From an uncultured delta proteobacterium (GTDB lineage Bacteria; Myxococcota_A; Polyangia; Polyangiales; JADJMO01), in contig CAIXWQ010001303.1 of NCBI GenBank assembly GCA_903923175.1, positions 1-34,051 of the forward strand: a stretch of 34,051 nt of DNA, read 5' to 3'. The notes beneath the pieces were generated by a model. It did not search any database and had not been told where the DNA came from. It worked only from the letters and a program-made list of their open reading frames with translations. This document shows, piece by piece, positions 9,810 to 27,663 of the stretch. The position numbers and the translations under genes are program-made. Position 1 is the stretch's first letter. Each line of letters begins with the position of its first letter.

Positions 9810-10388
9810 CTAGTCGTCCAATCCGAGCCCCTCGAGGATCCTCGGCGTGTGCTTCTCGACCCGTGCGGTCCGCGTCTCGGGCTTCTTCGGCTGCGAGAAG
9901 TGGAGGATGTAGGCCCGCTGTCGACCCGGCGTCAGCGCAGCGAAGGCCGCCTTCAGCTTGCGATTCCCGGCGAGCGCAGACGCGAGCTCCTCGGGCAGCT
10001 CGTGGTCCTCGGTCTTCTTGCGCGCGACCTTCAGCCCGGCGCGCTCGACCTCGATCGCTTCGCGCAGGTAGGCGTTCAGCGTCTTCTCGAGCTTGGTCAC
10101 CTCGGCGACGCTCGTGAACCGGACCTGCCGGGCCGACTGCACGTTCTTCGTCTGTTGGACGAGGACGCCTTTGGCATCCTTCAGGAGCGCGCCCTTGTGG
10201 AACAGGATGGCGCAGTACGCCTTGAAGCCGTGGATGAGGGCGACGTTCTTCCCCTCGAGCGCGTAGCAGGGCTGGCCCCACTTCAGATCTTCCGTCAGCC
10301 CGCTGGCCAGGAGGATCTCGCGGAGCTTCTCGAACGGCGCGCGCCACGCGTCCTGCCGCTTCATGAATGCATCGACCTTCGCGTTCAC
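9810..10388 (-). CDS. DUF1801/YdeI-like (OmdA) family protein
   Basis: GTG start with upstream GGGAGGT; AFMKRQDAWRAPFEKLREILLASGLTEDLKWGQPCYALEGKNVALIHGFKAYCAILFHKGALL and C-terminal PGRQRAYILHFSQPKKPETRTARVEKHTPRILEG. Confidence 0.8.
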   Translation of the reverse strand: MNAKVDAFMKRQDAWRAPFEKLREILLASGLTEDLKWGQPCYALEGKNVALIHGFKAYCAILFHKGALLKDAKGVLVQQTKNVQSARQVRFTSVAEVTKLEKTLNAYLREAIEVERAGLKVARKKTEDHELPEELASALAGNRKLKAAFAALTPGRQRAYILHFSQPKKPETRTARVEKHTPRILEGLGLDD

Positions 10389-10705
10389 CGCTACCTCCCA
10401 GGTGCTGCCCCGCGGCGAGCATACCCAGAAATCGATCGGCCCTCCGCGGACGCACCGGCGGGCTACCCCTCGTCGTGACGCGCCGGCTCGAAAAGAACGC
10501 GCGGAGCGCGATCCGCTGCTGCGCGGGGCGCGCCGACCTCGCGATCCGAGAGTCGAGGCGCCCACGAGTCGCCGGCGCATCGTCGCGTGTAGCGCGAGAC
10601 GATGCGCCCGTGCCGCCGTCTCGCGGGGAGACACTCACTCTCGCGACGACTTGTCTGGCAATTGTCCTATATCGCATTGCCGATGAAGAGCGTAGGACTT
10701 CGGCT

Positions 10706-12436
10706 ATGGAGAAGGTCGTTCGCGGAGCGTCGACGGCGGGCTCCGACACACCGCCGACTCCTACTTCCGAGTCGATCCATTCGCTCCAGTCAATCCCTTC
10801 GCTCCATTCGCCCGCGAGCACGCGCGACGAGCTGGCCCGGGCGCTCGAGCGGCTTCATGTGAGCGAGGCCGCGCTGCGCGAGAGCGAGCGGTGGCTCGCG
10901 GCGATCGTCGACTCCACCGTCGACGCGATCATCTCGCTCGACGACTCGCAGCGGATCGTCGGCTTCAATCGGAGCGCGGAGCGGATCTTCGGTCCGCCCG
11001 CCGCGGACATGCTCGGGCGCTCGCTCGACGCGCTGCTGCCCGCTCGATTCCGCGAAGGGCACGCCGGCATGGTCGCCGATTACACCGAGCACGGCGCGTC
11101 GGCGCGCCACATGGGCGCGGCGCGCGTGACGGGGCTTCGCGCCGACGGCCGCGAATTCCCCGCGAGCGCGTGCATCTCCCGCTCGACCTCGGGCGGCCGT
11201 CGCCTGACGACGGTCGTGCTGCGCGACGAGGAGGAGCTCGCTCGCGCCGAAGACGCGAACAAGGATCTCACCTCGCAGCTTCACCATCGACAGCGCCTCG
11301 AGGCCCTCGGCACGCTCGCGGGAGGGGTCGCGCACGACTTCAACAACATCCTGATGGCGATCGGCGGCAACCTCGACCTCGCCGAGGCGGACGCACCACG
11401 CCACTCGCTCGTCGCGGAGAGCCTCGGTGAAATCCGGCGCGCGAGCGAGCGCGGCGCGGCGCTGGTGAAGCAGATCCTGGCGTTCAGCCGCAAGCGCCCG
11501 GCGGAGCCCCCCGCGGTCGTCGAGCTCGGCTCCGTCGTACGCGATGCGGTGCGGCTGCTCCGCGCGGCGCTGCCCCCACGGGTGAGCCTACGACTCGAGA
11601 TCGCCCCAGAAACCCCTGCGGTACGGATGCCTCCGACGCAGATCGAGCAGGTCGCGATGAACCTGTGCACCAACGCGTGGCACGCCGTCGGCGCTGCGGG
11701 CGTCGTCCGCGTATCCGTCGAGGCCGCGCTCGTTGCCGCCGATTCCGCTGCGGCGCGCCGAGGTCTCACGCCAGGAGCATTCGCTCGTCTCCGCGTGAGC
11801 GACGAAGGCTGCGGCATGGATCGCGAGACGCTCGATCGCATCTTCGAGCCCTTCTTCACCACGAAGCCACAAGGTGAGGGGACCGGCCTCGGACTCGCCG
11901 TCGTACACGGCATCGTCACGAGCCACGGGGGAGCGATTCTGGTCGAGAGTCAACCGGGCGTCGGCTCCACGTTCGAGGTCTACCTCCCCGCTAGCGAATT
12001 CCCGACGAAGCCGCCGTCTCCTCCGCCCGAGCAGCCGACGAAAGACGCCCCCGGACGTGGCTTGATCCTGGTCGTGGACGACGAGCCGACGGTCGCGATC
12101 GCGTGGAGCCGGATGCTCGAACGCGCAGGGTTCGAGGTCGTGACCGCCGTCGACGCCTCCGTCGCCATCGAGACCCTCGCCGCGCGGCACGGCGAGCTCG
12201 CGCTGCTCCTCACGGACCTGAGCATGCCGCGGCACGACGGCGTAGCGCTCGCGCGCGAGGCGAACCGCCTGGACCCCGCGCTGCCCGTCGTGTTCGCGAC
12301 CTGCTTCGCGACGCCCGGGCTGGCGACGCGCGTTTCGGCATTCAACGTGCGGGAGGTGCTGGCCAAGCCGCTCGCCCTCCGCGATCTCGTCGAGGCGGTC
12401 TCGCGCCACGCGCGGCGCGTCCGCGTCCTCTCTTGA
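10706..12436 (+). CDS. Hybrid sensor histidine kinase (PAS, HisKA, HATPase, receiver)
   Basis: PAS (IVDSTVDAIISLDDSQRIVGFNRSAERIFG), H-box LGTLAGGVAHDFNNIL, ATPase motifs, C-terminal receiver ILVVDDEPTV...LLLTDLSMPRHDG; start at MEKVV preferred over the longer ORF start. Confidence 0.9.
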   Translation: MEKVVRGASTAGSDTPPTPTSESIHSLQSIPSLHSPASTRDELARALERLHVSEAALRESERWLAAIVDSTVDAIISLDDSQRIVGFNRSAERIFGPPAADMLGRSLDALLPARFREGHAGMVADYTEHGASARHMGAARVTGLRADGREFPASACISRSTSGGRRLTTVVLRDEEELARAEDANKDLTSQLHHRQRLEALGTLAGGVAHDFNNILMAIGGNLDLAEADAPRHSLVAESLGEIRRASERGAALVKQILAFSRKRPAEPPAVVELGSVVRDAVRLLRAALPPRVSLRLEIAPETPAVRMPPTQIEQVAMNLCTNAWHAVGAAGVVRVSVEAALVAADSAAARRGLTPGAFARLRVSDEGCGMDRETLDRIFEPFFTTKPQGEGTGLGLAVVHGIVTSHGGAILVESQPGVGSTFEVYLPASEFPTKPPSPPPEQPTKDAPGRGLILVVDDEPTVAIAWSRMLERAGFEVVTAVDASVAIETLAARHGELALLLTDLSMPRHDGVALAREANRLDPALPVVFATCFATPGLATRVSAFNVREVLAKPLALRDLVEAVSRHARRVRVLS

Positions 12437-13634: not shown

Positions 13635-15617
13635 ATGGCCAACACTTCCTCCGACGGCCACGCGCGCCGTCGTTCCGGCGACCGCGCGATGGCTGCCCCC
13701 AGGTCGACGACGACCTCCGCAGCGATCCACTCCAACGGCGTGAACGCCGACATCGAGCAAGACCGCGCGGCCGCGCGCAAGCTCGCCGAGGAGAAGGCGC
13801 GCGCGCGGACGCTGGCGCGGGCGCAGGCGGTGGCCGAGAAGCTCGGGGCCGCGACCGCGCAGGTCTCGTCGTCGATCCAGGAGGCGTCCGGCGCCATCCA
13901 CGAGCTCGAGAAGACCGTCCAGCAGATCGCCGCTGGCGCGCGCGAGGCCTCCGCGGCCGCCGACGAGTCGCGCTCGGCGATCAACGAGATCGAGAAGGCC
14001 GCACAGCAGGCGAACAAGAACTCGGCCTCGTCGATGGAGCAGGTCAACGTGCTCCAGCAGCTGGTCGCGGCGTCCACGGCCGACATCAACACGCTCATCC
14101 AGGGGGTCGGCGAGTCGGCGCAGGCGAACATCGAGTCGGCCCGGATGATCGGCGAGCTCGAGAAGCTCTCCGACGAGATCGGCAAGATCGTGCACGCGGT
14201 CGCCCGCATCGCCGATCAGACGAACCTGCTGGCGCTCAACGCGGCCATCGAGGCGGCGCGCGCCGGCGAGCACGGCAAGGGTTTCGCCGTCGTCGCCGAC
14301 GAGGTCCGCAACCTCGCGGAGCGCAGCGAGAAGAGCGCGCGCGGGATCCAGGACGTCGTCAACGAGATCCAGGGGCAGGTCAAGGTCGTCGCCGCCGACA
14401 CCGAGAAGGCCGGAAACCGGGCCGTCGAGGAGGTCGAGAAGGCCAAGGCGATCACGCGCGATCTCGCGCAGGTCGCGACCGACATGGGCGTGATCCGCGA
14501 TGGCTGCGAGGTCATCGCGTCGAACGCGGTGCAGGCGGTTGCCGGCGCCAAGCAATACCTGGCCGGCTCCGAGCAGGTCGCGTCGGCCGCCGAGGAGGCC
14601 TCGTCCGCGTGCGAGGAGAGCCTCCGCTCGGTGCAGGAGCAGGCCAAGGCCTACAACGAGATGTCCGACGCGGCCGGCTCGATGGCCGATCTCGCCGACG
14701 AGCTCAAGACCTCGACGAACGCGCAGAAGTCGGCCGAGGAGCTCGCGGCGTCGGCCGAGGAGCTCTCGGCGAACACCGACGAGGTCAAGGCCGCGGCCGG
14801 GCAGATCGCCACCGCGATCGATCAGATCCAGAAGGCCGCGGGGATCCAGGCCAAGGCGGCCGAGCAGTCGAAGGACCTCGGCAACCAGCTGCAGGCCGCG
14901 GCGGCCGCGATGGGCGGGCGCGCGAAGGCGAGCACCGAGAAGGCCGAGGCGATCAAGACCCTGTTGCAGAGCAACAAGGTCAACGTCGACGCGCTCATCG
15001 CCAACGTCGGCTCCGCGGCCCAGGCCGCCTTGGGCTCGGCGAAGAACGTGAAGGAGCTCGAGGAGCGCACGCGTCGCATCGACAAGATCGTCGACGCCAT
15101 CGTGATGGTCACGGTGCAGACGAACATGCTCGCGGTGAACGGCAACGTCGAAGCGGCGCGCGCCGGCGAGTACGGCCGCGGCTTCTCCGTGGTCGCGGGC
15201 GACATCCGCTCGCTCTCGAACGAGAGCAGCGAGAACGCCGATCGGATCAAGGATCTCGTCCGCCAGGTCCAGGCCCAGATCCAGCGCGTGGCGACCGACA
15301 TCGAGCTCGCCGGCAAGACCGCGCTCGCCGAGGTCACCAAGGCCAAGGTCGTCACGGCGAACCTCGAGCGCATGGCCACCGACGTGGGGCGCGTGCAGCA
15401 GGCGATCCAGGAGATCGGCACCGGCGCGCAGGAGTCGGCCAAGGCGCTCGAGGAGGCCGGCAAGGCGGCCGACCAGATCAGCGCGGCGGCGCAGGAGACC
15501 GCGAAGGCGACCGAAGAGGCCGCCACCGCCGGCGAGCAGGCCTCGAAGGCGGCGCAGCAGATCGCGCAGGCCGTCGAGGAGATCGCCTCGCAGGCCGACG
15601 ATCTGCAGCACGGCTGA
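13635..15617 (+). CDS. Soluble methyl-accepting chemotaxis-like protein with two MCP hairpin tips (double signalling domain)
   Basis: 660 aa, no TM segment. Tip 1 [40 protein letters not shown] (14208-14327); tip 2 [42 protein letters not shown] (15102-15227); Ala/Glu-rich coiled coil elsewhere. AAGGAG upstream of ATG 13635. Confidence 0.9.
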
Positions 15618-15637
15618 CCGCCACCCGCGAGACCAAC

Positions 15638-17503
15638 ATGTCAGAGCAGCTCACCCGCTCCCAAGACCTCTCGGCGCACCTGGAAGAGAACCAAGTGGTG
15701 ACCTTCTTCCTCGGCGACGAGGAGTTCGGCTTCGACATCATGTCCGTGCAGGAGATCATCCGGCAGCCCACGCTGTGCCGGATCCCGATGGCCCCCGACT
15801 ACGTCGAGGGGGTCGCGAACCTCCGGGGCACGGTCCTCCCGGTCATCGACACCCGCACGCGCTTCGGCATGCGGCGCGAGACCGACACCGACGGCACGCG
15901 CGTGCTCGTCCTCGACGTCGACGGCCACAAGACCGGCCTGCGCGTCGACCGCGTGCGGCAGGTGACGCGCATCCAGCGAGGAGAGATGGAGGCGCCACCG
16001 GCGATCATCCGGGGCGGAGGGTCCTCCGAATACCTGAAGGGGGTCGCCAAGCTCGAGGGCGGCAAGCGGATCATCATGTCGCTGAACCCCCACGCGATCT
16101 GCAAGGTCGAGATCGCGGCGCTGGCCGAGACGCTCGCCAAAGAGGGGGCGGCGGCCGACCACGCGCCCTCTCTCGCGAGGACCGCGGGCGCCGACGCCGG
16201 CGATCAGTCGGTCGCGCAGATCGTCTCGTTCACCCTCGGGGCGGAGGAGTTCGCCTTCCCGATGGAGCACGTCCGGGAGATCCTGCGCGTCGAGCGGCCG
16301 AACGAGGTCCCCGACACCCCCGAGTACGTGCTCGGGATCGTCACCGTGCGGGGGAACATCCTGCCGGTGATCGACCTGCGCATCTTGCTCGGGCTCTCGA
16401 CGCTCGACGCGGAGGTCACGGCCACGGCGGCGCGCGCCCGAGCGGGCTTCCGTGCCTGGTTCGACGCGGTCACGGCCCAATGCCAGGGCGAGACCGCGCG
16501 CAGCACCGCGACCAGCGGCCTCGACGAGCTCCGCGCCTGGCACGCCGGCTTCTCGACCGCCAGCGAGACGCTGATGGAGGTCGTGAGCCAGATCCGGGTC
16601 GCCGGCGACAAGGTCCTCCGCGGGCTGCAGCAGACCCACGAGGCCAACCGCGGCGCGCGCGAGGTGTTCGGCGGCGAAGTGGCCCCGCACGCGGCCGACG
16701 TCGTCCGGCTCCTCACGGAGTTCGAAGGGAAGGTGAAGGCGAACATCTCCGAGGATCAGCGTCTGGTCGTCGTGCAGTCGCACGGGACGCTCTTGGCGCT
16801 GCTGGTCGATCGCGTCCGCGAGGTGCTGAACGTCCCCAAGCGGCTGATCGATCCGCCGCCGCGACTCTCGACCGCGGACGCGAGCGAGGTCGCCGGGGTG
16901 GCCAGGCTCGAGGAGGGCAAGCGGCTGATCATGCTGCTCGACGCGAACAACCTCGTGCAGCGGGACGCGCTCGGCTCGCTCGATCAGCAAGGCGGCGTCG
17001 AGGAGCAGGTCCGGCGGGCCAAGGAGGGGAGCGCCATGGAGCGTGGAACGACCGATCGCGACGGCGGTGCGCTCCTCGAGCGGCAGTTCGTGACGTTCCG
17101 CCTCGCCGACGGCGAGTACGGCATTCCGATCGAGCAGATCCAGGAGATCGATCGCACCTCGAAGATGACCAAGATCCCGAAGTCGGCCGACTACGTCGAC
17201 GGGATCACCAACCTGCGTGGCGAGGTCATTCCGGTGATCAACGCGCGCAAGCGGTTCGGCCTGCCGATGAAGGAGGTCGACGAGCAGACTCGCGTCATCA
17301 TCCTCGAGATCGACGGCAACAAGACCGGCCTCTTGGTCGACTCGGTCCGCCAGGTGCTCAACCAGGCGCAGAAGGACATCGCGGCCCCCCCGGCCTCGAT
17401 CTCGGGCGGCGTCGATCGGCAGTTCATCTCCGGGATCGGCAAGGCCGACAACGGCAAGCGGATGATCGTCCTGCTCGACGTCGCGAAGGTCCTGAAGGAG
17501 TGA
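15638..17503 (+). CDS. Triple-CheW-domain protein; second CheW domain interrupted by a helical insertion
   Basis: 621 aa; three CheW signatures: VVTFFLGDEEFGFDIMSVQEI...GVANLRGTVLPVID; IVSFTLGAEEFAFPMEHVREI...GIVTVRGNILPVID; FVTFRLADGEYGIPIEQIQEI...GITNLRGEVIPVIN. Confidence 0.92.
   Translation: MSEQLTRSQDLSAHLEENQVVTFFLGDEEFGFDIMSVQEIIRQPTLCRIPMAPDYVEGVANLRGTVLPVIDTRTRFGMRRETDTDGTRVLVLDVDGHKTGLRVDRVRQVTRIQRGEMEAPPAIIRGGGSSEYLKGVAKLEGGKRIIMSLNPHAICKVEIAALAETLAKEGAAADHAPSLARTAGADAGDQSVAQIVSFTLGAEEFAFPMEHVREILRVERPNEVPDTPEYVLGIVTVRGNILPVIDLRILLGLSTLDAEVTATAARARAGFRAWFDAVTAQCQGETARSTATSGLDELRAWHAGFSTASETLMEVVSQIRVAGDKVLRGLQQTHEANRGAREVFGGEVAPHAADVVRLLTEFEGKVKANISEDQRLVVVQSHGTLLALLVDRVREVLNVPKRLIDPPPRLSTADASEVAGVARLEEGKRLIMLLDANNLVQRDALGSLDQQGGVEEQVRRAKEGSAMERGTTDRDGGALLERQFVTFRLADGEYGIPIEQIQEIDRTSKMTKIPKSADYVDGITNLRGEVIPVINARKRFGLPMKEVDEQTRVIILEIDGNKTGLLVDSVRQVLNQAQKDIAAPPASISGGVDRQFISGIGKADNGKRMIVLLDVAKVLKE
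17021..17503 (+). other. Putative internal translation start giving a stand-alone 155-aa CheW (RBS 17021-17027, ATG 17036)
   Basis: AAGGAGG, 8-nt spacer, ATG in frame with the triple-CheW ORF; downstream product MERGTTDRDGGALLERQFVTFRLADGEYG... is a complete CheW domain. Confidence 0.45.
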
Positions 17504-17511
17504 GCCGCGGG

Positions 17512-17553
17512 TCGGTCGAGCTCGGATCCTCAGCTGGATTCGAGCTCGACCGA
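17512..17553 (+). promoter_or_regulatory. Intercistronic hairpin, 18-bp stem and 6-nt loop
   Basis: TCGGTCGAGCTCGGATCC-TCAGCT-GGATTCGAGCTCGACCGA; arms are complementary at all positions with one G-U wobble. Confidence 0.8.
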
Positions 17554-17577
17554 GGCCGACTTCGGAGAAGCGTTCCC

Positions 17578-18681
17578 ATGTGTCCGTTCCACGACAAGCC
17601 GAAGATTCGAGTCCTGATCGCCGACGACTCGGCGCTCATGCGACGCACGCTCCGGCGCGTCCTCGAGGACGACTCCGACTTCGAGGTGATCGACACCGCC
17701 CGCGACGGCGAGGACGCCGTGGCGAAGGCGCGCGAGCTGAGACCCGACGTGGTGTCGATGGACATCAACATGCCGAAGCTCGACGGCATCTCGGCGCTGC
17801 AGCTGATCATCAGCGAGGGGATCTGCCCGGTGGTCATGCTGTCGAGCCTGACGCAGCACGGCGCCGTCGCGACGTTCGAGTCTCTCGAGCTCGGCGCCTT
17901 CGACTTCGTCGCCAAGCCCGGCGGCACCGTCTCCGCCGAGCTCGGCTCGGTTGCACGCGACCTCCGCGCCAAGCTCAAGGCGGCCGCGAGCTCGCGCAGC
18001 CTCGATCGAGCGGGTCGGCGGACGCGGGCCGAGCGTGTCCGGCGCGTCACCCGTGAAGCGCGAGAGCTCCCGCCCGGGCCCAAGCTCGCGCTCCCCGAGC
18101 GCGCGGCCCCGTCGGACATGAAGGTCGTGGCCATCGGCATCTCCACCGGCGGGCCGGCCACGATCATGGAGGTGCTGCCGGCGATTCCGCACGACGTCAA
18201 CGCCGCCTTCTTCCTGGTCCAGCACATGCCCGGGAGCTTCACTGGCCCCTTCGCGCGCCGGCTCGACGAGACGTGCCAGCTGCACGTCGAGGAGGCCGCC
18301 GCGGGCGTCGAGGTTCGCCCCGGCTGCTGCTACGTGGCCCGCGGCGAGTACCAGATGACGGTGCACCGAGCCGCGAACGGGCGCGCCCTGCTCCGCACGC
18401 CCACCAAGCCCGACACGCTCTTCAAGCCGTCGGTCGACGTCATGATGGAGTCGGTGCTGGCGGCGTACGGCGCGAGCACGATCGGCGTGCTGATGACCGG
18501 CATCGGCGACGACGGCGCGAACGCGATGGTGAAGATCAAGCAGGCCGGCGGCTACACGATCGCCGAGAGTGAAGAGACCGCGGTCGTGTACGGAATGCCC
18601 CGGGAGGCGATCGAGCGCGGGGGCGCGAACGTCGTGCTGGCGAGCTGGGACGTTGCGAAGGCCATCCTGCGTCGACTCTAG
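17578..18681 (+). CDS. cheB: Chemotaxis response regulator protein-glutamate methylesterase CheB
   Basis: Receiver (VLIADDSALMRRTL...VVSMDINMPKLDG) plus methylesterase domain (IGISTGGPATI, FFLVQHMPGSFTGPFARRLD, GVLMTGIGDDGANAM). Confidence 0.95.
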   Translation: MCPFHDKPKIRVLIADDSALMRRTLRRVLEDDSDFEVIDTARDGEDAVAKARELRPDVVSMDINMPKLDGISALQLIISEGICPVVMLSSLTQHGAVATFESLELGAFDFVAKPGGTVSAELGSVARDLRAKLKAAASSRSLDRAGRRTRAERVRRVTREARELPPGPKLALPERAAPSDMKVVAIGISTGGPATIMEVLPAIPHDVNAAFFLVQHMPGSFTGPFARRLDETCQLHVEEAAAGVEVRPGCCYVARGEYQMTVHRAANGRALLRTPTKPDTLFKPSVDVMMESVLAAYGASTIGVLMTGIGDDGANAMVKIKQAGGYTIAESEETAVVYGMPREAIERGGANVVLASWDVAKAILRRL

Positions 18682-18695
18682 AGACTCGAGGTCCT

Positions 18696-19769
18696 ATGTC
18701 CGTCGAGAGGCTCGTAGCCCAACTGAACGCCGAGAGTGACGAGGAGCGCGCGTGGGCGGCCGAGGACCTCGGCTGCGGCGACGTCGGGACGGCGCTGCCC
18801 GCGCTGCTCGCGCGCGTACGCGTGGAGCCGAGCCGGGCCGTGCGCGAGGCGATCGTCACGGCGCTCTCGCGCTTGACGGATCCGGCGGTGCCCGCGGGGG
18901 TCGCCGAGCTGCTCTCTCACGACGACGCCTTCCTGCGCAACGGCGCGGTGGCGCTCCTCCGGGCGAGAGGGGCGGCGGCCGTGCCTGCGATCCGACGCGC
19001 GTTCGAGTCGCCCGATCCCGACCTGCGCAAGCTCGCGCTCGACATCCTCGGCGCGATCGAGACCCCGGACGCAGACGCGCTGTACGAGGCGGGCCTTCGT
19101 GATCGAGACATCAACGTCCGCATCGCGGCGATCGAGTACGTCGGCGAGCACCGAAGGGCGGGCTTCCGGCCGTGCCTCGAGGCGCTCTTCCCCGACGAAC
19201 CGAACCCGATGCTCCTGGCCGCGCTCTTCGCGACGCTCGCGTCGATCGGCACCGAGCAGACCTGGTCGGTCATCGCGGCGCGTTTTCCGACGGTCGAGAG
19301 CGTCCCCGCGTTCCTGCGCGGCGCGTGGCTCCGCGCCCTCGCACAGTGGCGAACCGGCGACACGCTCGAGACGCTCGCCGCGAACGCCCCGCACGCGAGC
19401 CCCGAGGATCTCGTCGACGCGCCCGGCCTTTGTCGCGAACGCCTCGCCTCCGTCGCCGCGCCGTCGCCGCTGCTGGCGCACCTCGAGGCGCTCCTCGGCG
19501 CGTCGATCGCGCCGACGACGAAGTATCGGATTCTCGAGTGGCTCGGCGGACTGCACGAAGCGGAGCCCATCTCGGCGATGGTGCGTGCGCAGCTCTCGAG
19601 CACCGAACCGCTGGTGGCGCAGGGCGCGCGCGAGGCCCTCGCCCGACTGAAGCCGGAAGGCTGGCAGGCCTCCGTCGACGAACAGGCGGCGCGCGCGCCG
19701 CGACCTTCGCCCCACGCCGCATTCACGAAGGAGCGGTCCTCGAAGAAGGCCTCCTCGGACGGCGTCTGA
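18696..19769 (+). CDS. HEAT-repeat protein
   Basis: 357 aa; repeated helical pairs e.g. DPAVPAGVAELLSHDDAFLRNGAVALLRARGAAAVPAIRRAFESPDPDLRKLALDILGAI. Confidence 0.85.
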   Translation: MSVERLVAQLNAESDEERAWAAEDLGCGDVGTALPALLARVRVEPSRAVREAIVTALSRLTDPAVPAGVAELLSHDDAFLRNGAVALLRARGAAAVPAIRRAFESPDPDLRKLALDILGAIETPDADALYEAGLRDRDINVRIAAIEYVGEHRRAGFRPCLEALFPDEPNPMLLAALFATLASIGTEQTWSVIAARFPTVESVPAFLRGAWLRALAQWRTGDTLETLAANAPHASPEDLVDAPGLCRERLASVAAPSPLLAHLEALLGASIAPTTKYRILEWLGGLHEAEPISAMVRAQLSSTEPLVAQGAREALARLKPEGWQASVDEQAARAPRPSPHAAFTKERSSKKASSDGV

Positions 19770-20602
19770 TGAACGTCACCACGCGCCAGTTCGAGATGCT
19801 CCGAGACATGATCTACGAGGCTCTCGGGCTCAGCTTCGACGAAGGCAAGCTCGATTTTCTCGAGAAGCGCGTCGAGAAGCGCATGGGGCACCTCGGCGTG
19901 GGCACGCTCGACGACTACCTGTTCCACCTGCGCTTCCTCGACACGCGCGGCGCCGAGATGCAGGCGCTCGCGAACCTGGTGACGACGAACGAGACGTACA
20001 TGTTCCGGGAGTTCGAGCAGCTCCAGGGGTTCGCCGACCACTGCCTCGACGAGATCCTGGCGGCCAAGGAGAAGCGCGGCGACAAGACGCTGCGGATCTG
20101 GTCCGCCGGCTGCTCCTCGGGTGAAGAGCCCTACACACTCGCGATCATCCTCCGCGAGGTCATCCACGACATCGAAGACTGGGACATCCAGATCGTCGCG
20201 ACCGACCTCGACGAGGTCCGCCTCGGGATGGCGCGCGCCGCGACGTACGGCCCACGCTCGGTGCGCGACGTGCCCGAAGAGTACCTGTCGCGGCACCTGC
20301 GCCCGCTCCCGAACGGTGAGTACGAGGTGAGGCCCGAGACGAAGAAGCTGGTCGAGGTGCGCCACCTCAACTTGAACGATCGCTCCGCCATGAGGAGCAT
20401 GCGCGGCTTCGACTTCGTGTTCTGTCGGAACGTCCTGATCTACTTCGACGACGCGTCCCGCAAGGCGGTGGTGGATTCGTTCTTCCACACCCTCGTCAAG
20501 GGGGGATTCCTCTTCCTCGGTCACTCCGAGTCGGTCGGGCGCATCACGAGCGCGTTTCGTCTCAAGCGCCTCGGCAAGCACCTCGTGTATTGCAAGGAGT
20601 AG
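19769..20602 (+). CDS. cheR: Chemotaxis protein methyltransferase CheR
   Basis: 277 aa; LVTTNETYMFRE, RIWSAGCSSGEEPYTLAIIL, DFVFCRNVLIYFD, GHSESV; start overlaps the preceding stop (TGATG). Confidence 0.96.
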   Translation: MNVTTRQFEMLRDMIYEALGLSFDEGKLDFLEKRVEKRMGHLGVGTLDDYLFHLRFLDTRGAEMQALANLVTTNETYMFREFEQLQGFADHCLDEILAAKEKRGDKTLRIWSAGCSSGEEPYTLAIILREVIHDIEDWDIQIVATDLDEVRLGMARAATYGPRSVRDVPEEYLSRHLRPLPNGEYEVRPETKKLVEVRHLNLNDRSAMRSMRGFDFVFCRNVLIYFDDASRKAVVDSFFHTLVKGGFLFLGHSESVGRITSAFRLKRLGKHLVYCKE

Positions 20603-20605
20603 TCC

Positions 20606-20977
20606 GTGAAAACCATTCTCGTCGTGGACGACTCCCGGACGACCCGTAGCTACCACGCGGCGATCGCGGCCTCGGCCGGGTACCGTGTGGTCACCGCGGT
20701 CGATGGCGCCGACGGGCTCGAGAAGCTCCTCGCCGAGCGGTGCGACCTCGTCCTGACCGACATCAACATGACCGGGATGGACGGCTACGAGTTCCTCCGC
20801 CGCGCGCGCGAGTTGCCGGAGTGCGAGGAGGTGCCGATCGTCATCATCTCCACCGCTTCGCGCGAGGCCGACAAGCTCAAGGCCTTCACGCTCGGAGCGA
20901 ATCTCTACATCGTGAAGCCCTCCGAGCCGCAGGCGTTGCTCGATCATCTCCAGATGATGCTCGGGGGGACGCCGTGA
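20606..20977 (+). CDS. CheY-like single-domain response regulator
   Basis: 123 aa, GTG start; ILVVDDSRTTR...LVLTDINMTGMDG...VIISTASR...YIVKP. Confidence 0.92.
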   Translation: MKTILVVDDSRTTRSYHAAIAASAGYRVVTAVDGADGLEKLLAERCDLVLTDINMTGMDGYEFLRRARELPECEEVPIVIISTASREADKLKAFTLGANLYIVKPSEPQALLDHLQMMLGGTP

Positions 20978-21270
20978 GCCAGGTGCTCACGCTGCACGGC
21001 ACAATCCTCGAGATCGCGCTCGAGGGGGAGCTGACGGTCGTCGACGTGAAGGAGATGCACGCAGCGATCCTCGCCGCGTTGTCGCCCGAGCACGACGTCG
21101 TCGTGCGCGCCAAGGACGTCAGCCGCGTCGACACGGCGGTGGCGCAGCTGATCTACGCGGTCGGCGTCTACGCCAGGAGCTTCGAGGTCCTAGAGGCCTC
21201 CGAAGCGTGGCTGAAGGCATTCCGCCTCCTCGGACTCGAGCGTCCCATCGACCCCGAGCCTGGCACGTAA
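20974..21270 (+). CDS. STAS-domain protein (anti-sigma factor antagonist-like)
   Basis: GTGA overlap with previous gene; VSQVLTLHGTILEIALEGELTVVDVKEMHAAILAALSPEHDVVVRAKDVSRVDTAVAQLIYAVGVYARSF. Confidence 0.75.
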   Translation: MSQVLTLHGTILEIALEGELTVVDVKEMHAAILAALSPEHDVVVRAKDVSRVDTAVAQLIYAVGVYARSFEVLEASEAWLKAFRLLGLERPIDPEPGT

Positions 21271-21287
21271 CCGGGAGACTTCGAGCG

Positions 21288-21659
21288 ATGCCGAAGACCG
21301 TACTTTCCGTCGACGACTCCCCGAGCATCCGCCAGGCGGTGAAGCTCACGCTCGGCTCGAAGGGCTACGTGGTGCGCGAGGCCGACGGCGGCAAACAGGC
21401 CCTTCAGATCTGCGCCGCCGAGCCCGTTCATCTCGTCATCACCGATCTCAACATGCCAGAGATGGATGGCATCGAGCTCATTCGTCACATCCGGGCGCTC
21501 TCGGCCCATCGATTCACGCCGATCCTGATGCTCACCACGGAGTCGCAGGCCGACAAGAAGAGCCAAGGCAAGGCGGCTGGCGCGACGGGCTGGATCGTGA
21601 AGCCCTTCACGCCCGATCAGCTCGTCGCGGTCGTGCAGCGCGTGCTGCCGCCTGGCTGA
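21288..21659 (+). CDS. CheY-like single-domain response regulator
   Basis: 123 aa; VLSVDDSPSIRQAV...LVITDLNMPEMDGIELI...LMLTTES...WIVKPFTPDQL. Confidence 0.93.
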   Translation: MPKTVLSVDDSPSIRQAVKLTLGSKGYVVREADGGKQALQICAAEPVHLVITDLNMPEMDGIELIRHIRALSAHRFTPILMLTTESQADKKSQGKAAGATGWIVKPFTPDQLVAVVQRVLPPG

Positions 21660-21691
21660 GCAGCGAGTTCCACGATGCGCAGACTCCACCC

Positions 21692-23578
21692 ATGGCGACG
21701 CGACGGGCGGCGGGAGGCGCCAGGCGCATGAGCCCGCTGAATTTGCCTCGTTCGCCCGCGCTCGACGCCTCGACGGCGCAGCTGCACTCCGAGCGCGACG
21801 CGCTCGCGAGCCTCGCCTCCGACATCGAGGGGGACTTCGTGCGGCTCGGCGATCTGCTCGGCGACACCAGCGCTGCCTGCTCCAGGCTCGCCGGCCTCGC
21901 CGACGACCTGCGACGCGTCGCGCGGGGCGAGGACGGCAAACGCGCGCTCGTCTTCTCTTATGAGCTCTTCAAGAAGTACTCCGACCTCGTCCTCGCCGGC
22001 ATCGACCAGGCCGAACGGGTCCGGCAGGAGCTTGGCGCCGTCTCGGCCGACGTCGCGATCCTCGCCAAGCGTGAGCGTGACTTCTCGGAGATCGTGACGA
22101 GCTTCTGGCTGCTGAAGACTGCGTTCCGGGTCGAGGCCGCGTCGCTCTCCCACGAGCACCGCGCGCTGCTCCTCGGGTTGACGAACGGCATGGACGAGCT
22201 CCACGAGGGGCTCAAACGGCTCGTGTTCGAGCAGTTCGGCCGGCTCGCCGCCACGCGGCTGCAGATCGCGCGGCTCGACGCGCGCCTCGGCGACGTCCAG
22301 ACCGACAGCCGCCGCCGTGTGCAGCAGGCACGGAGGCAGCTCGAGAGCGACCTCGACGCGTTCACCAACGCGCTGTCGCCCGCGACACGGTTCAGCGAGC
22401 AGGTCACGAACGAGAGCGCGCGTGCGGGGCTCCACGTGTCGCAGGTGATCGTGTCCTTGCAGTACCACGACATCGTTCGGCAACGCGTCGAGCACGTCGT
22501 GACGGCGATCGACGAGATCCTCACGACGCTGGCGGCGGCCGGGAGTGACGGTGCGAACCTCGCCGACGAGGCCGCCTCCGTCGAGGTCGCGAGCGCCGGC
22601 GCCAGGGTGCACTTCTCGGCGCGCATCCAGCTCGAACAGCTTCGCGACGCGCGCAGCGAGATCGACGGCGCGGGCGAGACGATCGTCTGCGGCATCCGCG
22701 AGGTTCTCGAGAGCGGCGAGGCGGTGCTCGGAGCGGGGATGCGGCTGCGGCAGCTCGTCACCGATGGCCTGCGACGGTCGCAAGCCTCGAGCTCGTTCGT
22801 GAACAAGATCCAGGATCTGCACGACTCCCAGGGCGCGGTCGCGCACGACGTCGACGCGCTGGTCAAGCTCGCCTCCGACGTCGGCACGATCGTGGAGGAT
22901 CTCTCTGTAGACGTGGTCCAGAAGACCCAGGCGCTGCGGCTCGTCGCGCTCAACGCCGGCGTGCAGGCCCTCCACGTCTCGGCGGGCGGCGCCCTCGAGC
23001 AGCTCGCGGCGATCACGCAGCGCGACGCGGACGAGGCGCTCGCGCACACCAAAGCGCTGCTCGCGGGCGCGCGGAGCATCCACGTCGCGGTCGAGGGGCT
23101 GCGCGGCGGACTCGAGGAGTTCCTCGAGCTCACCCGCGACGAGGACGCCGCGCTCGACGGCGAGGCGCTCATGGCCCGGCAGCTGCTGGTCGAGATGCGC
23201 TCGGGCGTCGCGGCGAGCTTCGAGGGGCTCGACGGGGATTTCGACCGACTGCGAAAGGCCGCGCACCGGACGCTCGACGAGCTCACGTTCCGCGAGGTCA
23301 TCACGACTCGGTTCACGAAGATGGAGGCCGCCCTCGAGGGGGTCGTCGCCGCGACCGCTGGGCTCGTCGATCGAGAGAGCGAGAGCTACGAGCTGAGCCT
23401 CGCGAGCCTGCGCGCGAGCTACACGATGGAGCGCGAGCGCGCGATGCACGACGCGGTCGCGCGTCGCGAGCACGAGCGGCGGGGCGCCACCGCGGTCCAT
23501 GGCTCGAGCGGCACGAGCCTGGCCGGCGCCGACGCGGCGAGCGCGCCTGCGCTGGACGAGAACGTGGAGCTGTTCTGA
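21692..23578 (+). CDS. Divergent MCP-derived cytoplasmic protein with two degenerate tips, DxxxQ motif and NVELF C-terminus; true start may be ATG 21728
   Basis: Degenerate tips SFWLLKTAFRVEAASLSHEHRALLLGLTNGMDEL (about 22100-22215) and QALRLVALNAGVQALHVSAGGALEQLAAITQ (about 22928-23020); LQYHDIVRQRVEHV at 22457-22498; C-terminus ...ALDENVELF. Confidence 0.7.
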   Translation: MATRRAAGGARRMSPLNLPRSPALDASTAQLHSERDALASLASDIEGDFVRLGDLLGDTSAACSRLAGLADDLRRVARGEDGKRALVFSYELFKKYSDLVLAGIDQAERVRQELGAVSADVAILAKRERDFSEIVTSFWLLKTAFRVEAASLSHEHRALLLGLTNGMDELHEGLKRLVFEQFGRLAATRLQIARLDARLGDVQTDSRRRVQQARRQLESDLDAFTNALSPATRFSEQVTNESARAGLHVSQVIVSLQYHDIVRQRVEHVVTAIDEILTTLAAAGSDGANLADEAASVEVASAGARVHFSARIQLEQLRDARSEIDGAGETIVCGIREVLESGEAVLGAGMRLRQLVTDGLRRSQASSSFVNKIQDLHDSQGAVAHDVDALVKLASDVGTIVEDLSVDVVQKTQALRLVALNAGVQALHVSAGGALEQLAAITQRDADEALAHTKALLAGARSIHVAVEGLRGGLEEFLELTRDEDAALDGEALMARQLLVEMRSGVAASFEGLDGDFDRLRKAAHRTLDELTFREVITTRFTKMEAALEGVVAATAGLVDRESESYELSLASLRASYTMERERAMHDAVARREHERRGATAVHGSSGTSLAGADAASAPALDENVELF

Positions 23579-23613
23579 ACCGCGGCGCGCGCGCCGACGA
23601 GGATCCGCACGTC

Positions 23614-24033
23614 ATGGCCCAACAGATACTCAAGCTCCGCACGCTCGAGGACGTCATCCGCGTGCGCCAGGCGTGCGTACGCCTCGCGGTCGAGCTCGGT
23701 CTCGACGGCTCGGATCGGAGGCGCGTCGCGACCGCGGCCGGCGAGATCGCGCGCAACGTCCTCCAGCACTCGGGCGACCTGGGCGAGGTCGCGCTCGAGG
23801 AGATCGACGACGGCACGCGTCGCGGAATCCAGATCGTCGTGCGGGACCAGGGGCGGGGCATCGCCGACGTCGTCGCCAACTCCAGCGCCGTCGCCTCGGC
23901 CTCGGTGATCTCCCTCGGCGCGGGGCTCGCCGGAGCGAAGTGGCTGATGGACACCTTCGAGATCGACACCGCGATCGGTCGGGGGACCACGGTGCGAATG
24001 GTGAAGTGGCAGAGCTCGAACGTCAGCCCGTGA
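23614..24033 (+). CDS. RsbT/RsbW-like serine/threonine kinase (HATPase_c switch kinase)
   Basis: 139 aa; AAGEIARNVLQHS (N box), VRDQGRGI (G1), SLGAGLAGAKWLMDTFEIDTAIGRGTTVRMVKW (RsbT-like G2 region). Confidence 0.85.
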   Translation: MAQQILKLRTLEDVIRVRQACVRLAVELGLDGSDRRRVATAAGEIARNVLQHSGDLGEVALEEIDDGTRRGIQIVVRDQGRGIADVVANSSAVASASVISLGAGLAGAKWLMDTFEIDTAIGRGTTVRMVKWQSSNVSP

Positions 24034-24065
24034 AGTCGTGATGGCGTGTCGAAGGAGCGTTGGAA

Positions 24066-26891
24066 GTGGCAATCACACCCTCTCAGATTCTCGAGCTCAC
24101 CCGCGCGGCGTTTCGGCAGGAGGCCGATGAGCTGCTGTCCGAGCTCGACACCACGCTCCTCCAGCTCGAGGCCTCGCCGATGGACGCGGCGCTCGTCAAC
24201 CGTGCGTTCCGGGCCATTCACACCCTCAAGGGTTCCGGCGCCACGGCCGGCTTCGACGCCGTCTCGGGGGTGCTCCACGGCGTCGAGGACGCGCTCAACG
24301 AGGCGCGCGAGGGGCGCCTCGCGATGAACGGAGAGATCGTCGACATCGTGCTGAAGGTGACCGACGTCGTACGACGTCTGCTCCAGGGGAGCGGCTCCGA
24401 CGCCGCGCTGCTCGAGGAGGGGCACGCCAGCGTTCGCGCGCTCGCCGCGCACCTCCCCGCATCGGGGAAGGTCGGCTCGACGCCCGCTGCGCCCGCCGCG
24501 CTCGCCGCGCCCGCGAAGGAGACCACCGAGCGCGGCGGCAGCGTCCACGCCGTGCGGTTCGCTCCGCACCGCACCATCTTCCACTTCGGTAACGATCCTC
24601 TCGTGATGCTCCGTGAGCTCGCGGGCCTCGGCGCGATCGTCGTTCGCGCGCGCGTCGACGCGCTCCCCGCGCTCCCCGAGCTCGATCCCGAGCTCTGCTA
24701 CCTCGCGTTCGAGGCGCAGGTCGGGACGAGCCGGCCGGAGGCGCAGCTCCGCGAGGTCTTCGCCTTCGTCGAAGACGACGCCGACGTGCGCATCACCCGC
24801 ACGGTCGCCGAGCATGCCTGGGTCCTGCCGCCGATTGCGTACTTCGATCCGGAGGCGGTCGCCGACTTCGTCGAGGAGGGCGAGGAGAACATCGCCGCGC
24901 TCGAGGCCGAGGTGCTCGCGCTCGAGGAGAATCCCAGCGAGACGCAGCGAGTCGAGGTCGTCTTTCGCGCGCTCCACAACTTGAAGGGCCAGGCCGGGCT
25001 GCTGCTCAGCGAGATGCGGCTCGCGCCTCCCGTCGGTTACCCGCTGGTGGCCTTCCGCGATCTCTGCCACGGCGTCGAGGGGTTCGCCGAGTTGCACCGG
25101 GGCACCGCGCGCAAGGAGCTCGACGAGGCCGGAATCCAGCTCTTGCTCCAGGCGGTCGACAGCCTGAAGTCACTCCTCGCGGACTTCCTCGAGGCGCGCG
25201 TCGCGGGCGATGGTGCGCAGCGCCTGCTTGCCAGGCTCGCCCAGCGCGGCGCCACGGTGCCGCCGCCCGAGGCGGGCGCACACGCGACCATGCTGGGCTC
25301 GGTCGCCGCGCAGTGCCGCGGCCTCGTGAGCTCCATCTTGCGGCCGGGCGAACGGGTGGAAGGGCTCTCGGCCACGGAGGTGAAGTCCATCTACCGCGCC
25401 CTGCAGACGCTCGGGCGCGCTGCGAGCTACGACAGCAAGCCCGTGGTCCGGGAGCGGGCCGACGAGATGCTCTCGACCTGCCGCGACCTGCAGGCGCGCG
25501 AGGACGGCGCACGCACCCTCTCGGTGCTCGTCCCGCAGTACCGGGGCCTCGAGGAGGCGCTCGCGCAGTCGAGCGAGCGGAGCGCGGCGCGCTCGTCGCC
25601 GCCGAAGGCGCGCACCATCTCCATCCGCCCATCGAGCCCGCCGAAGGTCAGCGAGCGCGCCCCCGCGGCCGACGTGGGCGCCGCGGCGGGCGGTCGGAGC
25701 GTGCGGGTGGATCAGCACAAGCTCGATCGCCTCATGCGCGCCGTCGGCGAGCTCCTCGTGGCGCGCAACTCGCTACCCACCTTCTCGAAGCGCCTCGAGG
25801 CCGAGCGCAGCTCCGTCTTCCGAGACGTCAAGGACGTCGGCGAGCGGATCTCCCACATCGCCGACGATCTCCAGGACTCCGTCATGGCGATCCGGATGAT
25901 GCCCATTCGCACGATGTTCCAGCGCTTCCCCCGCATGATCCGGGATTTGGCGCGCTCCGAGGAGAAGCAGGTCCAGCTCATCATCTCCGGCGAGGAGACC
26001 GAGCTCGACAAGACCGTCATCGAGCAGCTCGCGGATCCCCTCGTCCACCTCGTCCGCAACGCGGTCGATCACGGGCTCGAGCCGCCGCACGAGCGCGTCG
26101 CCGCCGGCAAGCCGGAGCTCGGCACGGTCGGGTTGAAGGTCTCGCAGGAGGGGAGCTTCGTCGTCATCGAGATCTCCGACGACGGTCGCGGGATGCGCGT
26201 CGAGAAGCTCCGCGACAAGGCGGTGGAGAAGGGCCTGCTCACGCGCGCTGCCGCCGACGCCCTTTCGCGCGAAGCGACCTTCGAGCTGGTGTTCCTGCCC
26301 GGCTTCTCGACGGCGGCGAGCGTGACGAGCATCTCGGGGCGCGGCGTCGGCATGGACGTCGTCCGCAACAACGTCCGCCAGCTGCACGGCACGATCGCCA
26401 TCGAGAGCGTCGTCGGAGGCGGGAGCACGTTCACCGTGAAGCTCCCGGCGAGCCTGATGGTGTCGAAGGCCATCCTCGTGGAGTCCTCGGGCGACCAGTT
26501 CCTGTTCCCGATCGAGAGCGTTCGCGAGATGGTCAAGCTCGACGCCTCGGAGATCCACGGGATCGCCGCGCAGCGCTTCATCCACATACGGGGCTCCGTC
26601 TGTCCGATCGTGGCGCTCTCGACGATCCTCGGTCAGCAGGAGCGGGCGGCGACGGGCGGAGAGCAGAGCGCCGCCATCGTGCGTACGCGCCTCGGCGACG
26701 TGGCGCTGATCGTCGATCGGCTGGTCGCGGAGATCGACGTCATCGTGAAGCCGCTCTCGGAGGGGCTCGACCGCCTTCGGATGTTCCAGGGAGCGTCGAT
26801 CCTCGGGGACGGCCAGGTCGCACTCGTCATGGATCCGTCCCAGCTCGGTGCGGTCGCGCAAGCTGCGCTGTCGGCACGGTTGCACGCCTGA
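24066..26891 (+). CDS. cheA: Chemotaxis histidine kinase CheA with two Hpt domains
   Basis: GTG start 8 nt after AAGGAG; Hpt1 FRAIHTLKGSGATAGF, Hpt2 FRALHNLKGQAGLLLS, dimerisation/HATPase (HLVRNAVDHGLEPP, ISDDGRGM, GRGVGMDVV) and C-terminal CheW-like domain. Confidence 0.96.
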   Translation: MAITPSQILELTRAAFRQEADELLSELDTTLLQLEASPMDAALVNRAFRAIHTLKGSGATAGFDAVSGVLHGVEDALNEAREGRLAMNGEIVDIVLKVTDVVRRLLQGSGSDAALLEEGHASVRALAAHLPASGKVGSTPAAPAALAAPAKETTERGGSVHAVRFAPHRTIFHFGNDPLVMLRELAGLGAIVVRARVDALPALPELDPELCYLAFEAQVGTSRPEAQLREVFAFVEDDADVRITRTVAEHAWVLPPIAYFDPEAVADFVEEGEENIAALEAEVLALEENPSETQRVEVVFRALHNLKGQAGLLLSEMRLAPPVGYPLVAFRDLCHGVEGFAELHRGTARKELDEAGIQLLLQAVDSLKSLLADFLEARVAGDGAQRLLARLAQRGATVPPPEAGAHATMLGSVAAQCRGLVSSILRPGERVEGLSATEVKSIYRALQTLGRAASYDSKPVVRERADEMLSTCRDLQAREDGARTLSVLVPQYRGLEEALAQSSERSAARSSPPKARTISIRPSSPPKVSERAPAADVGAAAGGRSVRVDQHKLDRLMRAVGELLVARNSLPTFSKRLEAERSSVFRDVKDVGERISHIADDLQDSVMAIRMMPIRTMFQRFPRMIRDLARSEEKQVQLIISGEETELDKTVIEQLADPLVHLVRNAVDHGLEPPHERVAAGKPELGTVGLKVSQEGSFVVIEISDDGRGMRVEKLRDKAVEKGLLTRAAADALSREATFELVFLPGFSTAASVTSISGRGVGMDVVRNNVRQLHGTIAIESVVGGGSTFTVKLPASLMVSKAILVESSGDQFLFPIESVREMVKLDASEIHGIAAQRFIHIRGSVCPIVALSTILGQQERAATGGEQSAAIVRTRLGDVALIVDRLVAEIDVIVKPLSEGLDRLRMFQGASILGDGQVALVMDPSQLGAVAQAALSARLHA

Positions 26892-26922: not shown

Positions 26923-26956
26923 TTCGCTCGCGCAGGGACCCGCTAGCGTGAGCGAA
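26923..26956 (+). promoter_or_regulatory. Hairpin overlapping the start codon of the J-domain gene (11-bp stem, one G-U)
   Basis: TTCGCTCGCGC-AGGGACCCGCTA-GCGTGAGCGAA; right arm ends on the A of ATG 26956. Confidence 0.5.
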
Positions 26957-27663
26957 TGCCGATGGATCCGAGTGAGCTCGTCGCCGCGTGCGAGCGCCTC
27001 TTCGGGCGTGCGTGGCGCGAAGGGGGGATTCGTCTGGAGGCGCTCGAGGCTCGTGCAGTGCAGTCGGCCTTCCGCCAAAGGGCCTTCGAGGTCCATCCCG
27101 ATCGCGCGCAGCTGCTCGGGCGCTCGCCCAGCGAGCTGACGGCCGAGCTTCAGGCAATCGGCGCTGCGCGCGTGACGCTCGAGCGCTTCCTGGCGAACGA
27201 CGCCGCACCGTCGGTACCCGCCGAGCCCACGGAGGCACCGGTCGCCGCGGAGCCGCCGGCGCCCACTCGCCTGTACCGCGGCGCCGTCCCCAGCCGCCCC
27301 CTACGCTTCGGAGAGTTCCTCTACTTCAGCGCTTGGATTTCCCGCGACGAGCTCCGCGACGCCGTCGCTTGGCAGGCCGAGTCGCGACCCAGGTTCGGAG
27401 CGGTCGCGCTGGAGCTCCGGCTGCTCCGTCGCGGTCAGCTCGAGAGACTCCTCGGCGAGGCGCGGCGCCTGCCGATCGGCGAGCACGCGGTGGCGCGAGG
27501 CGTGCTGACGGGTCCGGAGCGGGATCGCGTGCTCGGCGTGCAGCGGCGCGTCCAGGCACCGCTCGGAGGCTACTTCGTCGAGCTCGGGTTGTTGGCCCCG
27601 GGCGAGGTGCGCGAGCAGCTCCGGCGACAGCGTCTGCACAATCGGCGCGCAATGGCGGCTTGA
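26956..27663 (+). CDS. J-domain-like protein with C-terminal GspE/MshE-N-like repeats
   Basis: AVQSAFRQRAFEVHPDRAQLLG (HPD motif); LRFGEFLYFSAWISRDELRDAVAWQAESRPRFGAVALELRLLRRGQLERLL and GGYFVELGLLAPGEVREQLRRQR resemble T2SSE-N repeats. Confidence 0.6.
   Translation: MPMDPSELVAACERLFGRAWREGGIRLEALEARAVQSAFRQRAFEVHPDRAQLLGRSPSELTAELQAIGAARVTLERFLANDAAPSVPAEPTEAPVAAEPPAPTRLYRGAVPSRPLRFGEFLYFSAWISRDELRDAVAWQAESRPRFGAVALELRLLRRGQLERLLGEARRLPIGEHAVARGVLTGPERDRVLGVQRRVQAPLGGYFVELGLLAPGEVREQLRRQRLHNRRAMAA

Follow-up and report, generated by a model that had tools for sequence, protein, structure and literature searches.

A probable F9-class, membrane-free chemosensory system in a Polyangiales genome, with new accessory parts

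Two proteins define chemosensory class F9: the receptor DosM, which carries two signaling domains in tandem, and the triple CheW called CheW3 (PMC7534058, PMC9321776). Nearly all DosM proteins are without a sensor domain, and under standard conditions no phenotype is known for the F9 system of Vibrio cholerae (PMC7534058, PMC9321776). The cluster described here bears on what F9 arrays sense and what they control. It lies in a 34,051-nucleotide (nt) contig (CAIXWQ010001303.1; "the window") from an uncultured delta proteobacterium of the order Polyangiales, whose genome measures 10.7 Mb with about 71% G+C, values that fit the phylum Myxococcota. Eleven tightly packed plus-strand genes at positions 13635-26891 form one chemosensory cluster, which contains both F9 signature proteins, a two-tip receptor without a sensor domain and a CheW3. 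We consider it rather likely that these genes encode an F9-class, membrane-free system in which the two-tip receptor would organize a double-layered array and an MCP-type protein, here called MCP2, would end the signal carried by a second response regulator, CheY2. The class is known and rare; the accessory parts are new, in particular an insert of ~118 amino acids (aa) in the middle CheW domain, predicted to form four helices, and an accompanying gene for a J-domain/cyclic di-GMP (c-di-GMP) protein.

The receptor gene (13635..15617; this and all other features of the window given below are on the plus strand) encodes a DosM-like protein of 660 aa that matches Pfam MCPsignal in two stretches (E=6.6e-61) and consists of two tandem MCP signaling hairpins, with neither a sensor nor a transmembrane domain. 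The first signaling tip is canonical (AARAGE at aa 207; 14253..14270), and the second, at aa 507 (15153..15170), lies exactly 300 aa past it. The tips are likewise at 207/507 in the related locus L007 (genome G198) and are at 248/548 in L008 (genome G336). All nine F9-like receptors measured, namely those of the window, L007, L008, and six plasmid-borne clusters, have this tip-to-tip distance of 300 aa, which argues that the length of the rod is strictly kept, as expected for a molecule bridging two layers. The CheW3 gene (15638..17503) encodes 621 aa (Pfam CheW, 351 bits, four stretches). An earlier note on the sequence of the window had counted three CheW genes here; there is a single open reading frame with three CheW domains and no internal stop. 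In a tree of 22 CheA rows, the ten rows with F9 architecture form one clade (support, 99/98) that leaves out the CheA of E. coli and five CheAs of the window's own genome. A scan of genome contigs with CheA yielded only a distant Desulfobacterales CheA, which also falls outside the F9 clade. The gene order around DosM-CheW3 matches that of six F9-like plasmid clusters, save for the position of the STAS gene and one inserted block. A relationship to the membrane-free cluster I (F9) of V. cholerae, with its DosM-type receptor, had been suggested before and is borne out by both signature proteins and by the CheA phylogeny.

Among 184 genomes from the order, at least 4 encode a CheW3 of the window type; this count is a lower bound, because scoring was confined to the top candidates from a permissive initial pass. 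An evenly drawn sample of 379 genomes from the phylum yielded only 2 such genomes, both of the window's order. Synteny in relatives, a comparison that the earlier note had proposed, is kept: the full order is present in G336 up to the contig end within CheA, in G288 it extends over three contigs (C34, C339, and C341), and in G198 it is kept without CheY2, MCP2, and the ATPase, which are missing together as a block. This conservation, together with the recurrence of the core order on proteobacterial plasmids, goes far beyond chance. MCP2 was found in three of the four CheW3-bearing genomes, and the rest of the order gave no match; a single query retrieved only itself, and a two-row profile retrieved the G336 and G288 copies. 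Flagellin gave strong matches in all four genomes (G000, G198, G336, and G288), in agreement with the F9 survey figure of 97% (PMC7534058, PMC9321776). The flagellar gene content of these genomes is uneven or divergent, with FliG in three of the four (it is missing from the window's genome) and FliM at most weak; the idea that they have no flagella was dropped because of the strong flagellin matches.

MCP2 (21692..23578; 628 aa) follows CheY2 (21288..21659; Pfam Response_reg, E=3.1e-30), the gene that opens the optional module. The three MCP2 orthologs are ~30% identical, well under most of their cluster neighbors, and yet all three keep the sequence LQ[YF][HQ]DI[VI]RQ and end in NVELF. In the window, the former corresponds to a CheZ-like DxxxQ motif, QYHDIVRQ (22460..22483), and the latter lies at 23561..23575. 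The catalytic pair of CheZ consists of Asp and Gln. Pfam CheZ (PF04344) weakly matches two of the three orthologs over the motif, with 19.0 and 11.2 bits. The C-terminal half of MCP2 contains a degenerate receptor tip (ALNAGVQALHVSAGGALEQLA; 22946..23008) that aligns with the tip of accessory "MCP"-annotated proteins found in or flanking four of the proteobacterial, plasmid-borne F9-like clusters; these proteins combine a tip with a QFQD or QYQD motif and end in IELF. In hhalign comparisons with a profile of the accessory MCPs, the C-terminal half of MCP2 matched with 96.5% probability and the N-terminal half with 89%; compared directly, the two halves gave 2%, which is not significant. The case for a duplication is thus that both halves match this one third family; by these alignments, the DxxxQ motif has persisted in the first half of MCP2, and the tip and tail have persisted in the second. 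The second CheY gene adjoins MCP2 in the window and the accessory MCP in plasmid loci L028 to L030; it is near CheC in L031 and L045 (Azospirillum CheC) and near CheX in L032 (Agrobacterium vitis). Among the relatives, CheY2 is present in L008 and L027 and absent from L007. Given that a second CheY stands beside an MCP2-like protein, CheC, or CheX across F9-like clusters, the simplest shared function would be that of a CheY phosphatase, and MCP2 is more plausibly a phosphatase of the CheZ type, acting on CheY, than a second sensor. A QFQDISRQ motif is also encoded by another chemosensory contig of the same genome (L034, around position 1114), and CheZ-like receptor proteins may thus not be limited to F9 clusters.

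The window had been described as encoding two double-tip MCP-type proteins. This holds for the receptor at 13635-15617, but the second protein is marked instead by its DxxxQ motif and conserved tail. We regard it as unlikely that MCP2 serves as another structural receptor with two tips, intact or decayed, rather than as a phosphatase. Each of its halves has a tip-like region, and its proteobacterial counterparts match MCPsignal with E values down to 1.1e-26; however, MCP2 itself has no Pfam MCPsignal match, its tips are degenerate, and the invariant elements are the DxxxQ motif and the C-terminal tail. The DosM-like receptor raises another alternative, since its N-terminal motif, RRxGDRAxAAP, is basic, is kept in L007, L008, and L022 (genome G288), and lies in a segment with a net charge of +5 across 75 residues. 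By the precedent of FrzCD, such an N-terminus might bind DNA, and the cluster would then encode a Frz-like (ACF) system bound to the nucleoid. Over the first 40 residues, however, the net charge is only +2, and proteobacterial F9-like receptors also begin with a basic coiled coil. With two signaling tips, where the FrzCD type has a single one, and with the triple CheW, the F9-like gene order, and the CheA kinship, a Frz-like system appears highly improbable.

The genes for the STAS-domain protein (20974..21270; Pfam STAS_2, E=2.1e-8) and for a SpoIIAB/RsbW/RsbT-type ATPase with a serine kinase fold (23614..24033; Pfam HATPase_c_2, E=8.4e-13) share one operon, and the earlier note had seen in them an added STAS/RsbT branch. 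The array might accordingly drive a partner switch: by phosphorylating the STAS protein, the RsbT-like kinase would release or capture a regulator of a sigma factor or phosphatase. The ATP-site residues of the kinase are conserved in three relatives, and its profile matches SpoIIAB (1til, E=9.6e-6) as well as RsbW. The phospho-acceptor position of the STAS protein, which we take to be the residue after the Asp, as in SpoIIAA, RsbS, and RsbR, is Thr in the window and L027. It is not conserved, being Ala in L007 and in L008, although L008 has the ATPase. Moreover, G198 and the six proteobacterial plasmid clusters read have the STAS protein but no ATPase. There, an ~80-aa "hypothetical protein" encoded after cheA aligns with the STAS protein of the window, with weak STAS_2 matches in five of the six (E, 0.0003 to 0.08, under the Pfam cut-off). 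A scan of window genes, which did not extend to unlinked ones, turned up neither a PP2C phosphatase nor a sigma factor, and a PDB sequence search with the STAS protein gave no meaningful match. Judged from this distribution, the STAS gene is probably part of the F9 core, present also where the ATPase is not; of these two genes, only the SpoIIAB/RsbT-like one is extra to that core. The added branch is therefore not supported, and we consider a partner switch quite improbable. By analogy, the STAS protein may perhaps act like CheS of Sinorhizobium, which is a precedent for a STAS protein that acts on CheA (PMC12654446).

Several observations weigh against an F9 array in which MCP2 ends the CheY2 signal. 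The array is predicted here from its genes. Assignment to F9 rests on architecture and on the 22-CheA tree, a comparison outside which the V. cholerae DosM and the published F9 models lie. The CheZ scores of the MCP2 orthologs are under the Pfam cut-off of 30.7, the structure model of MCP2 is poor (predicted local distance difference test [pLDDT], 56), a fold search with it gave no meaningful matches, and neither did a PDB sequence search. G198 is without MCP2, and no substitute phosphatase was found in its cluster. Finally, the FQD protein of plasmid locus L033 is encoded upstream, apart from the second CheY.

The CheW3 proteins of three relatives are 60 to 69% identical to that of the window. 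The insert inside the middle CheW domain (16397..16750) was found in all four relatives and was missing from all six proteobacterial CheW3 proteins. A 131-aa segment that includes it (16370-16762), modeled with AlphaFold2, was predicted to fold into a four-helix bundle (pLDDT, 78; predicted template modeling score, 0.72). The best Foldseek matches of this model were ligand-binding domains of the chemoreceptor MCP2201, at an E value of 0.07, which is not significant; lower matches included domains of PcaY, Vc1313, Tar, KinB, and NarQ and also unrelated four-helix bundles. The insert matched no known domain in Pfam, and a PDB sequence search with it gave no meaningful match. Because no fold match had an E value below 0.07 and unrelated bundles were also among the matches, a sensory role of the insert is a possibility only. 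The fuller proposal, that the insert is a four-helix-bundle ligand-binding domain that would feed input through the baseplate adaptor CheW3 instead of a receptor while the receptor-derived MCP2 acts as CheY phosphatase, strikes us as speculative and rather improbable.

The cluster seems to extend beyond position 26891, where the earlier note had ended it. The product of the next gene (26956..27663) combines a J-like domain carrying an HPD motif with a c-di-GMP-binding motif of the MshE type (MshEN; NF053729, 46.5 bits, cut-off 38). This motif scores over its cut-off in the window, L007, and L022; the Pfam match to the J domain is only weak in the relatives. Copies occur in four genomes (window, 26956-27663; L007, 16903-17619; L022, 1690-2496; L023, 1046-1882). 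The gene is downstream of cheA in the window, and in G198 and G288 it and the receptor gene are divergently oriented, which suggests that it travels with the cluster. In L023 (genome G145), it lies beside the cheB of a different cluster.

The remaining genes encode a CheB methylesterase with a receiver domain (17578..18681; Pfam CheB_methylest, E=2.8e-57), a HEAT-repeat protein (18696..19769; HEAT_2, E=7e-22), a CheR methyltransferase (19769..20602; CheR, E=2.1e-55), the core response regulator CheY1 (20606..20977; Response_reg, E=3.8e-26), and a CheA in which Pfam identifies two Hpt domains and dimerization, kinase, and CheW domains (24060..26891). A Pfam scan of the cluster proteins thus accounts for an MCP, CheW, CheB, HEAT, CheR, two receivers, STAS, the SpoIIAB-type ATPase, and CheA. 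Other points of the earlier description stood: the eleven genes are packed as a unit, with spacing of -4 to 35 nt and a sole exception of 74 nt between the triple CheW and CheB; there is no CheC, CheX, or CheD gene in the cluster; and there is no transmembrane receptor, as none of the cluster proteins, both MCP-type proteins included, has a hydrophobic segment of transmembrane strength. The same strand also encodes, upstream of the cluster at 10367-12436, a histidine kinase with PAS and receiver domains; no ortholog was seen at the corresponding place in L007.

From these genes we infer a rod-like receptor, with a tip at each end, that would span two CheA/CheW3 baseplates and so hold a double-layered cytoplasmic array, the triple CheW paving the baseplate. 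With no sensor domain on the receptor, other proteins would have to supply the input. CheA would phosphorylate CheB, CheY1, and CheY2; CheR and CheB would adapt the receptor; and the STAS protein might modulate CheA in the manner of CheS. MCP2 would terminate the signal by dephosphorylating CheY2, and the SpoIIAB/RsbT-like ATPase and the J-domain/c-di-GMP protein may couple the array to a local input or output. The cluster thereby offers candidates for F9 input and signal termination, namely the CheW3 insert and a receptor-derived putative CheY phosphatase beside its own CheY, as well as a STAS protein shared across F9-like clusters and a partner predicted to bind c-di-GMP. Some accessory proteins of F9 systems that are annotated as chemoreceptors may, by this reading, serve to end the signal instead.

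Like MCP2, a presumed CheY-P phosphatase, CheZ (PF04344) and CheT of Sinorhizobium carry a DxxxQ motif on a long helix, and CheT serves as a precedent (PMC12654446). MCP2 differs from both in its duplicated receptor-like module and its Pfam score under the cut-off. CheS resembles the window's STAS protein in being a small protein that consists of a STAS domain only and in having its gene located with those for CheA and two CheYs. The plasmid clusters (L028 to L033 and L045; Eleftheria, Methylobacterium, Sphaerotilus, Azospirillum, Agrobacterium vitis, and Methylosinus) have the order receptor, CheW3, CheB, HEAT, CheR, CheY, CheA, and a degenerate STAS, the core of which is shared by all six genera and the window. 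Five of the six have the HEAT gene at the window's place, between cheB and cheR (L028 to L031 and L033); the A. vitis cluster is without HEAT and without the core CheY. Unlike in the window, STAS follows cheA, CheW3 has no insert, and the accessory MCP is single, not duplicated; no SpoIIAB/RsbT-like gene was noted in the stretches read. A ParA family gene, a candidate array-positioning factor, follows the STAS-like gene in L029 (20505-21266) and L033 (20325-21176). In a Desulfobacterales chemosensory cluster (L002, 7885-12836), three CheB-like proteins are encoded close together, and there is also a ParA/MinD-like ATPase. The Frz system of Myxococcus xanthus has, as in the window, a cytoplasmic receptor with a basic N-terminus; it has one signaling tip and separate CheW proteins and belongs to a class other than F9. 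Closest is cluster I of V. cholerae (DosM, VC1403; triple CheW, VC1402; CheA, VC1397), which likewise combines a double-signaling-domain receptor without a sensor domain, a concatenated triple CheW, its own CheA, and purely cytoplasmic parts. Compared with it by description, not by sequence, the window adds the insert in the middle CheW, the CheY2/MCP2/ATPase block between STAS and CheA, and the J-domain/c-di-GMP gene.

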